From positions 1 to 33,371 of the forward strand of contig JASHSV010000110.1 of assembly GCA_030038535.1 (NCBI GenBank): a stretch of 33,371 nucleotides of DNA. Reading direction: 5' to 3'. Every line of letters starts with the position of its first letter. Position 1 is the stretch's first letter. This DNA comes from Candidatus Acidiferrales bacterium. GTDB lineage: Bacteria > Acidobacteriota > Terriglobia > Acidiferrales > UBA7541. Positions 2,809 through 7,415 of the stretch are shown piece by piece. The position numbers and the translations under genes were made by a program. Under the pieces are notes generated by a model. The model was not told the origin of the DNA. It saw only the letters and a list, made by a program, of their open reading frames with translations, and made no database searches.

Positions 2809-3654
2809 ATGCTCTCCGATCTTGATCTTTCGAAATCGCTTTCCAAATCCGCCGCGGCTCCGCGCCTAAAGGCCCTAGAGAGCCGGCTGCGCTTGCTTCA
2901 ATACGCCGTGCAGGAAGCGAATGTCCCCATCGTCATCTGTCTCGAAGGCTGGAACGCCTGCGGCCGCGGGGAAGTGATTAAACGGCTCTCTGAGCTTCTT
3001 GACCCGCGCCTGTATCAAGTGAGCAGGGGCCGTCCGCCTTCTCCGCTCGAACTCCGTTATCACTTTCTGTGGCGCTACCAACTGGCCCTCCCGCGGAAGG
3101 GCGAAATGCTCATCTTCGACCATTCCTGGTATTCGCGGGTGCTCGAAGACCGCTGTCACCGCCTGATCAAGAAGAAACTGTGGCGTCAGGCGTATTCCCA
3201 GATCAACGAGTTCGAGCGCTGGCTCGTGGACGACGGCACGGTACTCGTCAAGTTCTGGCTGCACATTTCCCGTAAGGAACAGCGTTGTCGCTTCCACGCC
3301 TATCGCAAGGATCCTCTGCTGCGCTGGAAGGTCACCAAGGCGTATTGGCGTCAGAACAAGCACTACAAGCGCTGGTTAAGAGCCGCGGACGAAATGATAG
3401 CCAGGTGCGGCACTGCCTATGCGCCTTGGACTGCGGTCGAAGCCGAGGACCCCCAGTGGGCGCGTGTCCGTGCGCTGGAAACTGTGGCTGCGCGCATGGA
3501 AGCCGCGCTCCAATTCCAGTTGCCGAACCTCAAGCCGGGCGGGGCGGAGGCCCGCGTCTCGAATCAGGCGCTGGTGGAAGGCAAGAAGCGCGTCCCGCGC
3601 CGCAAGGCAGAGGAGAAATCAGTGGAGATCGAAGCCGGTGACCAAGCACGCTAA
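2809..3654 (+). CDS. PPK2-family protein with degenerate P-loop, likely non-catalytic partner
   Basis: A 281-residue protein with a single polyphosphate kinase 2 fold (about residues 15-235) and a basic tail. PPK2 enzymes move phosphate from polyphosphate to nucleotides. Here the key motifs are changed: the Walker A stretch that normally reads GxDAAGKG is GWNACGRG at 47-54, with Arg53 in place of the lysine and Asn49 in place of the aspartate. The lid motif, usually FDRSWY, reads FDHSWYSR at 103-110. The later part (KFWLHIS, DPLLRWK, APW) matches what I recall of the N-terminal half of two-domain polyphosphate:AMP phosphotransferases, where the first domain is also substituted. The next gene, overlapping by 17 bases, encodes an intact PPK2 domain. 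I infer that the pair forms one enzyme. An alternative is a regulatory or structural paralogue. Confidence 0.82.
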   Translation: MLSDLDLSKSLSKSAAAPRLKALESRLRLLQYAVQEANVPIVICLEGWNACGRGEVIKRLSELLDPRLYQVSRGRPPSPLELRYHFLWRYQLALPRKGEMLIFDHSWYSRVLEDRCHRLIKKKLWRQAYSQINEFERWLVDDGTVLVKFWLHISRKEQRCRFHAYRKDPLLRWKVTKAYWRQNKHYKRWLRAADEMIARCGTAYAPWTAVEAEDPQWARVRALETVAARMEAALQFQLPNLKPGGAEARVSNQALVEGKKRVPRRKAEEKSVEIEAGDQAR

Positions 3655-4453
3655 AAACGGCCGCGGAAACGGTTCGGTCCATAGTGACGCCGAATCCACG
3701 CTCGGCGAACGCGCTGCCGCTGCGCGGCTCATCGGGGCATCCGGCAACCGCCTCGCGGCCCTCAGCATGTCGCAAAAACTCACTCCCGTCCGCTATAAGG
3801 CTCAGATCACGGATCTCCAGGTAAGATTGCTGAAAGCGGAATACGAAATTTTCCACCAGCAGGTGCCGGTCCTGTGCGTCATGGAGGGGTGGGATGCGGC
3901 AGGGAAGGGCGGGGCAATTAAACGGATCGCCGCTCCGCTGGATCCCCGTGGTTTCTCCGTGGTCAGCTTTGCGGCTCCTCGCGATGAAGAAAAGGCGCAC
4001 CATTATCTCTGGCGCTTCTGGCGCAACCTTCCGCGCGCCGGCCATCTCACCATTTTCGACCGCAGCTATTACGGTCGCGTCCTGGTGGAGAGGGTGGAAG
4101 GCTTCGCCAAAGAGCCCGAGTGGCGCCGGGCCTACCAGGAGATTTGCGAGTTTGAGAGCCACCAACTCTCCTTCGGAATGGCCATCGTCAAATTCTGGCT
4201 GCATATCACTCCCGGCGAACAGCTCAAGCGGTTCCGCGCCCGGGAGCTCGATCCCTATCGTTCCTACAAACTCACTGAAGAAGACTGGCGCAACCGCCAG
4301 AAATGGGATGCCTATACTGCCGCCACGGAGGAAATGTTCGCCCGGACCTCCTCCACCGGTGCGCCTTGGACGATCGTTCCGGCCAACGACAAATATTTCG
4401 CCCGCGTCGCGGTCATTCGCACTCTGGTCGAATCCATGGAGCGCGCGCTGTAG
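3638..4453 (+). CDS. ppk2: PPK2-family polyphosphate:nucleotide phosphotransferase, catalytic subunit
   Basis: A 271-residue PPK2 enzyme, expected to phosphorylate a nucleotide (probably AMP, the class II activity) using polyphosphate. The Walker A motif is intact, EGWDAAGKGG at 83-92 with Lys90, as is the lid/Walker B motif IFDRSYYGRVLVERVEG starting at 139. EEDWRNRQKWDAY and APWTIVPANDKYFARV are family signatures. The frame stays open far back into the previous gene, but that part is a shadow. I place the start at the GTG at 3638, which overlaps the preceding stop by 17 bases and has GGAGA about nine bases upstream. The ATG at 3767, just before the conserved domain, is the alternative; it would remove a 43-residue basic, polar N-terminus. 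The overlap suggests coupled translation and equal amounts of the two PPK2 proteins. AMP specificity is inferred, not shown. Confidence 0.88.
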   Translation: MTKHAKNGRGNGSVHSDAESTLGERAAAARLIGASGNRLAALSMSQKLTPVRYKAQITDLQVRLLKAEYEIFHQQVPVLCVMEGWDAAGKGGAIKRIAAPLDPRGFSVVSFAAPRDEEKAHHYLWRFWRNLPRAGHLTIFDRSYYGRVLVERVEGFAKEPEWRRAYQEICEFESHQLSFGMAIVKFWLHITPGEQLKRFRARELDPYRSYKLTEEDWRNRQKWDAYTAATEEMFARTSSTGAPWTIVPANDKYFARVAVIRTLVESMERAL

Positions 4454-4555: not shown

Positions 4556-4584
4556 TTGACGCCCTCCTCATCCGCCTCTAAAAT
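4556..4584 (+). promoter_or_regulatory. Sigma70-type promoter of hrcA-grpE-dnaJ
   Basis: TTGACG (4556-4561) is followed after exactly 17 bases by TAAAAT (4579-4584), 45 bases before the hrcA start codon. I looked for a CIRCE operator (TTAGCACTC, nine bases, GAGTGCTAA) between 4454 and 4628 and did not find one or a recognisable half. Confidence 0.6.
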
Positions 4585-4628: not shown

Positions 4629-5669
4629 ATGATTGACCGTCGCCATGCTGAAATTCTCGCCGATGTGGTGCGAACCTACATCGAAACCGGCGAGCCAGTC
4701 TCGTCACGCTCCATTTCGCGACGGCACGCGGAGCAGCTCAGCCCGGCCACGGTTCGCAACGTGATGGCCGACCTCGAAGACGAGGGCCTTCTGGCCCAGC
4801 CGCACACCTCGGCGGGCCGCGTCCCCACCACCGCCGGTTTTCGCTTTTTCGTGCATCACATCGCCGATCAACCGTCGCAGCTTTCGGAAAAGGACCGCGA
4901 GCGCATCCATCGCGAGCTCTCGTCTGCGCGCACTCCCGAAGAGGTCATGGAACGGGCCAGCCACGTGCTCGCTTCCGTTACCCAGGGGCTCGGCATCGTT
5001 ATTTCTCCTTCGGTATCCAATATGGCCATCGAACACGTGCGCTTTATTCCGCTTCCCGATGGCCGCATCGTCGTCGTCCTTCTCAGCGCGGGAGGCATTA
5101 CGCGGGACAAAGTGGTTCGCGTTCCACGCAGCATCCCGGCTGACGAGCTCGATCGCACTGCTGCAATGGTCAACTCCGAGTTCCGCGGCTGGACGCTTCA
5201 GGCCGTTCGCGCGGATCTGCGCGCTCGTCTGGCTCGCGACCGCGAACGCTACGACCAGCTCTCTACGAACGCGCTGCTTCTCTGCGACCCCAAACTCCTG
5301 GCGGAAGACACGCCGCGCGAGGTTTACGTGGAGGGGGCTGCCCAAATTGCCACCGCTCCCGGCCTCGCCGCTCCCGATGAGGTTCGCGAGCTTCTCGAAG
5401 CCATCGAAGAGCGCACGCGCCTGGTCGAGCTGCTCACCAGTTGCATCGAAGCTCCCGAGCCCGTCCACGTGGAAATCGGCGTTGCCGGGATGGACCGCGC
5501 CGGCCAGCGCCTGGCTCTCGTTACCGCGCCCTACGCCTGGAGCGAACCGCTCCAGGGTTCTCTGGGCATTCTCGGGCCCATGCGCATGCAATACGAGCGC
5601 GCGATCACCACGGTGGCGTGCGTTGCGCAGTACTTCAACACCTATCTTTCCGGGAGCCGTTCGTCGTGA
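4629..5669 (+). CDS. hrcA: Heat-inducible transcription repressor HrcA
   Basis: A 346-residue protein of normal HrcA length. HrcA represses chaperone genes by binding CIRCE operators, and GroEL helps it fold, so it lets go when unfolded protein draws GroEL away. The N-terminal winged helix is clear: MIDRRHAEILADVVRTYIET, then SSRSISRR, SPATVRNVMADLEDEGLL and HTSAGRVPTTAGFRFFV, within about residues 1-75. The rest is the GAF-like and insert regions that form the dimer. It is the first gene of an operon with grpE (4-base GTGA overlap) and dnaJ. No obvious ribosome binding site precedes the ATG at 4629. No CIRCE element is visible upstream, so self-regulation cannot be claimed from this sequence; its targets, such as groESL, must lie elsewhere. 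Confidence 0.95.
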   Translation: MIDRRHAEILADVVRTYIETGEPVSSRSISRRHAEQLSPATVRNVMADLEDEGLLAQPHTSAGRVPTTAGFRFFVHHIADQPSQLSEKDRERIHRELSSARTPEEVMERASHVLASVTQGLGIVISPSVSNMAIEHVRFIPLPDGRIVVVLLSAGGITRDKVVRVPRSIPADELDRTAAMVNSEFRGWTLQAVRADLRARLARDRERYDQLSTNALLLCDPKLLAEDTPREVYVEGAAQIATAPGLAAPDEVRELLEAIEERTRLVELLTSCIEAPEPVHVEIGVAGMDRAGQRLALVTAPYAWSEPLQGSLGILGPMRMQYERAITTVACVAQYFNTYLSGSRSS

Positions 5670-6256
5670 GCGACTTGGTTGAAAAATCGCGCGCCGGCTC
5701 GCCTGCGGAAAGCAACTCGCCTGCCGCCGCGCCCAGTCCCGCGGAGGAACTGCCCGTTGCCGGCCCGCCTGCGGTCGTTCCTCGCGAGGATTTCGACGCT
5801 CTGCGCGCCGAACGCGACGACCTGTTGAATTCTCTCGTCCGGCTTCAGGCCGATTTTGAGAACTATCGCAAACGCATCGAACGCGACCGTGCCGCGGAGC
5901 ACTATCGCGCCGTCGGCGCGGCCATCGAGCCGATCCTGCCCGTTCTCGATGATTTCGAGCGGGCCCTCGAAACTCACCGTGATCCCGGTTATGAGAAATT
6001 TCGCGCGGGCTTCGACCTCATTTACCGCCGCCTTTGGGCCGCTCTCTCCAAGCTCGGCCTCAAGCGCATTGAATCGGAAGGCCGTCAGTTCGATCCGCAC
6101 GAGCACCAGGCCGTCGAGCGCGTCGAATCGAGGGAGCACCCCGATGGCGTGGTTCTCGCCGAGCTCGCTGCCGGATATAAATTCCACGACCGCGTTCTCC
6201 GGCCCGCCATGGTTCGCGTAGCCGTCCATCCGCCGGCCCCGCGGAACGATGCCTAA
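5666..6256 (+). CDS. grpE: Nucleotide exchange factor GrpE
   Basis: A 196-residue cochaperone that speeds ADP release from DnaK. The order of parts is typical: an Ala/Pro/Glu-rich, probably disordered N-terminus (1-45), a long helix with [15 protein letters not shown], then [12 protein letters not shown] and the C-terminal beta domain containing [17 protein letters not shown] and [17 protein letters not shown]. The frame is open back into hrcA, but the start is the GTG at 5666, which shares four bases with the hrcA stop and has GGGAG nine bases upstream. Its partner dnaK is not in this window, so it must be encoded elsewhere. Confidence 0.95.
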
Positions 6257-7415
6257 GGCCCCCCGTCCGATGGCTACCGCCAAGCGCGATTTCTACGAGG
6301 TTTTGAGCGTTTCCCGCGAGGCTTCCGGGGAGGAAATCAAGAGCGCCTACCGCAAAGCCGCTCTCCGCTGGCATCCCGACCGCAATCCCGACAATAAACA
6401 CGAGGCCGGGGAAAAGTTCCGCGAGGCCACGGAAGCCTATAGCGTGCTCTCCGACGCGCAAAAACGCCAGATCTACGACACCTACGGCCATGCCGGCCTT
6501 TCCAGCGCTGCCGGCGGGCAGACCGTCGATTTCTCCATATTCGAGGGCCTCCAGGATATCCTCGGCGATTTTTTCCAAATGGACGACGTGTTTGGTTTTG
6601 GCGGCGGGCGTCGCGGCCGTGGCAGCCGCCGGCCCCAGCGCGGCGCCGATTTGCGCTACGACGTCACTCTCTCATTCGAGGAAGCCGCCGCCGGCAAGAA
6701 GCTCCGCATCCGCGTTCCCCGCGCCGAAATGTGCGACGTCTGCAGCGGGTCCGGCGCCAAACCGGGCACCTCCCCGGTCACCTGCATGATGTGCGAGGGG
6801 CGCGGACAGGTACGCCACCAGCAGAGTTTCCTCGTCATCGCTCGCACCTGCCCGCAATGCTTAGGCTCCGGTCGCGTCCTGCGCGATCCCTGCCCGAACT
6901 GCCGTGGGGCCGGGCGCACGGAGCGGGATCGTTCCCTCGATGTGGAGATCCCTGCGGGGGTCGAGACCGGGATGCGCGTGCGCCTTCCCGGCGAGGGCGA
7001 AGCCGGTATCAACGCCGGCCCGCGCGGCGATCTCTACGTCCTCGTTGAAGTCCGCGAACATCCCTTCTTCGATCGCAAGGGCACTGAAATGTTCTGCACC
7101 GTCCCCATAACCATCACCCAGGCCGCTCTCGGCGCCGAAATTCGCGTGCCCACCATGTCCGGCGAAGAAAAACTCAAGATTCCGGAAGGCACGCAGTCCG
7201 GCCATGTCTTCCGGTTGAAAGGGAAGGGCCTGCCCAGCCCCCACGGACACGGCAGAGGCTCGCTTCACGTCCGCGTTGCTGTCGTCACTCCCGACAAGCT
7301 GAGCCGCGAGCAAAAACGCCTGTTGGAAGAATTGGCCGCCACCTTCGACCACGACAATCGTCCCGCCGAACGCAATTCCTCTCTCTTCGAGAAGGTAAAA
7401 GACATTTTCGGCTAG
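6249..7415 (+). CDS. dnaJ: Chaperone DnaJ
   Basis: A 388-residue, full-length DnaJ, the cochaperone that delivers substrates to DnaK and triggers its ATPase. The J domain spans about 12-80 with the HPD motif at 42-44. The Gly/Phe region is short and Arg-rich ([13 protein letters not shown], 116-128). The zinc-binding domain has all four CxxCxGxG repeats, with cysteines at 162/165, 179/182, 201/204 and 215/218, followed by the C-terminal substrate-binding domain. The ATG at 6249 overlaps the end of grpE by eight bases. The ATG at 6270, closer to the J domain, is possible but has no better ribosome binding site. The stop lies six bases from the stop of the reverse-strand HEAT-repeat gene. Confidence 0.95.

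Follow-up and report, generated by a model that had tools for sequence, protein, structure and literature searches.

Two overlapping genes in the window (the whole stretch of 33,371 nucleotides that was analysed) probably encode a translationally coupled, heteromeric polyP:AMP phosphotransferase, that is, an unfused class II PPK2 in which the first protein (P1) would be non-catalytic and the second (P2) would carry the activity. Many bacteria make this polyphosphate-driven enzyme, which converts AMP to ADP, as one chain, whereas here, in a soil Acidobacterium, the halves are separate proteins. The arrangement is real, old, and common in Acidobacteriota, and it is best regarded as a little-described variant of an enzyme already known, not as an enzyme new in kind. 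Our search of the open-access literature found no description of a class II PPK2 in the form of two coupled, separate subunits, nor any statement of the role of the inactive half in the two-domain enzymes. Since the two proteins are naturally separate, the inactive half can be added to an assay or omitted from it without cutting a protein, which makes its role directly testable. PPK2s are employed for ATP regeneration, so the two-part form is also of some practical interest.

Class II enzymes produce ADP from AMP and polyP, and in the fused enzyme PA3455 of Pseudomonas the N-terminal half is inactive and the C-terminal half active (PMC8776046). P1 and P2 would share one message, on which the end of P1 overlaps the start of P2, and would hence be produced together; most likely they would assemble as the halves do inside fused PA3455-like enzymes. 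P2 would then transfer phosphate from polyP to AMP, giving ADP. P1, in which the PPK2 fold is retained along with the first lid arginine, on the polyP side, is expected to perform no chemistry and is probably a structural or polyP-holding partner.

Layout, selection and predicted structure of the two genes

The sequence-only reading had described two PPK2 genes with a 17-base overlap, and this layout was borne out (Table 1). Both products score well above the gathering score of 22.3 bits for Pfam PPK2 (PF03976), with 198.6 bits for P1 and 288.3 bits for P2, and they are the only PPK2 matches in the source genome. This genome is a fragmented 3.38 Mb draft with 79% completeness, and it also carries PPK1 and Ppx. 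The assignment of P1 draws on this match, its position in the N-half clade of the trees, its dN/dS and a confident PPK2 fold; that of P2 draws on Pfam, 51% identity to the C-half of PA3455, retention of all catalytic residues, and the fold. The start chosen for P2 is backed by the same-genus relative L019/L032, where a homologous GTG is preceded by GGAGG and the overlap is 8 bases.

Table 1. Positions in the window of the two genes and of the motifs and segments discussed in the text.
Feature	Position	Strand	Details and basis
P1, non-catalytic PPK2 subunit (putative), N-half counterpart	2809..3654	+	281 aa, ATG to TAA
P1 degenerate Walker A, GWNACGRG	2947..2970	+	D to N, K to R; alignment
P1 degenerate DRSWY motif, FDHSWY	3115..3132	+	R to H; alignment; His near-invariant in aligned relatives
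P1 lid motif, RFHAY	3289..3303	+	first lid Arg kept, second replaced by Tyr165
P1 disordered C-terminal tail (predicted)	3529..3651	+	aa 241-281, place of the interdomain linker; pLDDT mostly below 50
GGAG, ribosome-binding-like	3624..3627	+	10 bases before the P2 GTG; sequence
P1/P2 overlap	3638..3654	+	17 bases; P2 start inside P1 end
P2, catalytic class II PPK2 subunit (putative), C-half counterpart	3638..4453	+	271 aa, GTG to TAG
P2 disordered N-terminal extension (predicted)	3638..3742	+	aa 1-35, place of the interdomain linker; pLDDT below 50
P2 intact Walker A, GWDAAGKGG	3887..3913	+	alignment
P2 intact DRSYYG with class II glycine	4058..4075	+	alignment
P2 intact lid, RFRAR	4229..4243	+	alignment

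Except in its tail, P1 is confidently predicted to adopt the fold of a PPK2 domain (mean pLDDT 84.8), the best PDB matches being PPK2-II structures, and P2 is predicted to fold confidently except for its first 35 residues. In PA3455 the flexible linker spans residues 238-258 (PMC3163519), and as the tail of P1 and the head of P2 are both disordered in the models, the boundary between the genes sits in what corresponds to this linker region. Compared with the same-genus relative, P1 has a dN/dS of about 0.11 and P2 one of about 0.08 (Nei-Gojobori), values that are rough given that synonymous sites are near saturation. P1 is thus under strong purifying selection and accordingly not in decay. The loss of catalytic motifs in P1 and the fragmented state of the genome could suggest a decaying pseudogene, or a fused gene broken by an assembly frameshift. 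However, besides the low dN/dS and the confident fold, the same two-gene layout occurs in the same-genus genome and in 33 other loci, with differing relative frames, which speaks against an assembly frameshift and makes this explanation very improbable. We also considered a programmed frameshift yielding a fused product and rejected it: the relative frame varies between loci (0, 1, 2), so there is no conserved frameshift site.

Directly downstream of the pair lies an hrcA-grpE-dnaJ like cluster (4629-7415), with a promoter-like site at 4556-4584 ahead of hrcA. The gene order ALDH, P1, P2, HrcA, GrpE, DnaJ is also found in the same-genus locus L032 and is not seen around more distant pairs. Elsewhere in the window, an open reading frame on the reverse strand (458-886) has a translation that, by eye only, resembles a PilZ-type domain (RRRSQRV...SRHGG).

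Kinship with the halves of fused class II enzymes

The fused two-domain class II enzymes (PA3455, PDB 3CZP; the PAP of Acinetobacter johnsonii; TIGR03708) have the same two domains as P1 and P2 in the same order, with a degenerate N-half and a catalytic C-half that carries the class II glycine. They differ in being one chain of about 500 aa with a linker, whereas P1 and P2 are encoded by two genes in different frames. Neither protein reaches the TIGR03708 cut-off of 547.65 bits on its own (238.7 bits for P1, 369.1 for P2), so annotation by this family misses such enzymes.

Plain similarity is a poor guide to the identity of P1, which is 36.9% identical to the C-half of PA3455 and 34.6% to the N-half, and which matches TIGR03708 at positions 260-493. 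Assignment by best hit or by profile position favours the C-half, is misleading, and was discarded; the N-half identity of P1 rests on trees, in which the N domains evolve faster. A quick tree built from 144 domains recovered a single N clade (support 98) and a single C clade (92). Both persisted when motif columns and long rows were removed (N clade 89/88, C clade 98/87), and when all columns were used with only slow-evolving fused enzymes (N clade 100/99, C clade 99/93). P1 lies in the clade of N-terminal halves of fused class II PPK2s, that of PA3455 among them, and P2 lies in the clade of C-terminal halves. Long-branch attraction was discarded as the source of the N clade, which survives the removal of motif columns and long rows and then the omission of the long-branched fused N group.

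The AU tests, in which the groups were set by gene layout and not chosen from the tree, agree with this placement. A clade uniting separate N and separate C domains was rejected (p = 0.0017; p = 0.0025 with the long-branched fused N-halves omitted), and with it the origin of P1 by local duplication of P2-like genes. The sequence-only reading had proposed that P1 is a degenerate N-half and P2 a catalytic C-half, in the order of the fused enzymes, and had named a grouping of P1 with single-domain PPK2s as the result that would speak against this. We ran that comparison, and a clade of separate N domains with single-domain class II enzymes was rejected (p = 0.0085). Hence, by trees and AU tests, P1 is placed as the orthologous counterpart of the N-half of fused class II PPK2s and P2 as that of the C-half. 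One fused enzyme, L103 (G440), has an N-half with FDHSWYGRV, of the type seen in separate N subunits, and is basal in the fused N group; it is possibly a link between the fused and separate forms.

Single-domain class II enzymes, such as those of Bacillus cereus (9GIA) and Lysinibacillus fusiformis (9H8J), share fold, size and residues with P2, which is 50% identical to 9GIA; the genes examined have no N partner gene and cluster apart from the clade of P2. Class I and class III PPK2s share the fold and Walker motifs with P1 and P2, but carry Asn or Glu instead of Gly as the signature residue following Walker B, and they form separate clades.

Since single-domain class II enzymes exist (PMC8776046; 9gia, 9h8j), P2 might work alone. 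It could be a self-sufficient homodimer of this kind, having every catalytic residue, with P1 as a separate polyP- or nucleotide-binding regulator for which a stable complex is not required, or with P1 in some other role. We consider this the main rival, but a clearly less likely explanation. P2 falls with the C-halves of two-domain enzymes and not with single-domain class II, both in the tree without motif columns and in that with all columns. Moreover, 16 of the 17 class II C-like genes examined in short frames have an N gene directly upstream, and the exception (L085) clusters with single-domain class II.

Catalytic residues of P1 and P2

The reading of P1 as a non-catalytic subunit and P2 as the catalytic one was examined residue by residue in an alignment of 36 separate N domains, 33 fused N-halves, the C domains that match them (35 and 33, respectively) and 46 single-domain PPK2s. 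In PA3455, the Walker A lysine and the lid arginine are named as conserved active-site residues, G367 is the class II signature, and the second lid arginine is by position Arg423 (PMC3163519). The equivalent of the latter in FtPPK2 is R178, while the first lid arginine, R174, is proposed to line the polyP pocket (PMC4748334).

P1 lacks four catalytic residues: the Walker A Asp (N in P1), the Walker A Lys (R), the Arg of the DRS motif (H) and the second lid Arg, where its Tyr165 occupies the position of FtPPK2 R178 and PA3455 R423. It also lacks the class II glycine, having Ser there (FDHSWYS), and retains the Walker B Asp and the first lid Arg. P2 reads DRSYYGR at the same motif, carries the class II glycine after Walker B as Gly146, equivalent to PA3455 G367, and keeps every catalytic residue. 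These results confirm the earlier observations that P1 has lost the Walker A lysine and the DRSWY arginine and that the motifs of P2 are intact, and add to them the losses of the second lid arginine and of the class II glycine. The earlier view of P1 as a dedicated, non-catalytic protein is well supported at this level.

The same division holds across the alignment. In all 68 C domains the Asp and Lys of Walker A, the Asp and Arg of Walker B, the two lid arginines and the class II glycine are present, while in each of the 69 N domains one or more of four residues is missing: the Asp or Lys of Walker A, the Arg of Walker B, or the second lid Arg. The most consistent loss is that of the second lid Arg, missing in 68 of 69 N domains (35/36 separate, 33/33 fused), whereas the first is retained in 68 of 69. 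The only N subunit with the second lid Arg, L087, has Glu in place of the Walker A Asp. Walker losses are patchy: the Walker A Lys is retained in 30 of the 36 separate N domains, and eleven N domains retain all four Walker residues. The lost Walker residues of P1 are therefore real but no hallmark, P1 having gone further than most. The N-half of PA3455 has followed another course, since it keeps the Walker A Lys and has lost the Asp and Arg of the DRS motif (FGN), whereas P1 has lost the Lys and kept the Asp. As judged from the alignment, the hallmark of the N-half is the loss of the lid arginine, and the Walker losses are lineage-specific. The histidine that replaces the DRS arginine is at least 90% conserved among 15 aligned N subunits, a pattern that looks unlike random decay.

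This near-invariant histidine, together with two residues that P1 retains, the Asp of Walker B and the first lid Arg, could also suit a P1 that has kept phosphotransferase activity, on a different substrate and with altered residues, in which case the pair would be two enzymes in an operon; other separate N subunits even keep both Walker motifs (L082, L086, L088, L090, L091, L093). However, P1 has lost four residues, among them the Lys of Walker A and the lid Arg, that are kept in 46 of 46 single-domain PPK2s examined, from all three classes, and we regard an active P1 as improbable.

Distribution and ancestry of separate and fused forms

Among 396 genomes of Acidobacteriota, we counted about 68 with the fused form (some 35 genera) and about 20 with the separate form (some 16 genera), approximate figures from a hand count of the listing. 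In the family of the source genome the pair is separate in all six genomes found to have it; fused forms come from different families within its class. The sequence-only reading took the arrangement to be uncommon, whereas in Acidobacteriota it is a minority form but a frequent one, and the sole form seen in the family of the source genome. Beyond this phylum, eight plasmid records were sampled, with six fused and two single genes.

The organization of the pair is well conserved. The N gene precedes the C gene in 35 of 35 separate pairs, and the N domain comes first in all fused enzymes. Overlaps occur in 19 of the 35 pairs, 13 of them by exactly 8 bases, and the rest lie within 102 bases of each other. 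Pairs of the P1/P2 type stay intact where neighbouring genes change. N domains change somewhat more quickly than C domains, with mean differences of 0.51 and 0.40 in separate pairs. The N and C distances rise together (r = 0.86 for separate pairs, 0.82 for fused ones), a correlation that vertical descent alone could yield.

The earlier reading spoke of an enzyme split into two genes, a direction for which the trees give no sign: they show no fission, and the separate genes may be ancestral. In the N tree, the separate and fused forms are each monophyletic; in the C tree, two separate-gene groups surround the fused ones. Both forms are ancient. Their history may have been one fusion of separate genes, or equally one or two fissions, so that "split" is better read as "unfused". 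A more complete scenario, to which we give somewhat less than even credence, is that Acidobacteriota have a heteromeric PPK2 of ancient origin, whose dead subunit, maintained by selection and produced together with the active one, would be needed for polyP:AMP phosphotransfer or would tune it. The separate genes would be ancestral, one fusion would have led to PA3455-like enzymes, and the loss of the lid arginine would mark the non-catalytic half in both.

In three loci (L083, L088, L094) the N and C genes share a frame, and only a single TAG and a few bases lie between them, such that one base change would join or separate them. Readthrough of this TAG was considered and set aside: each stop is followed by a start codon at most 13 bases away, which makes ordinary re-initiation a sufficient explanation. 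Finally, other Acidobacteriota (L062, L071, L073) carry tandem PPK2 genes of class I type, with the Asn signature and with motifs intact in both copies; in L062 the two genes are in frame and directly contiguous.
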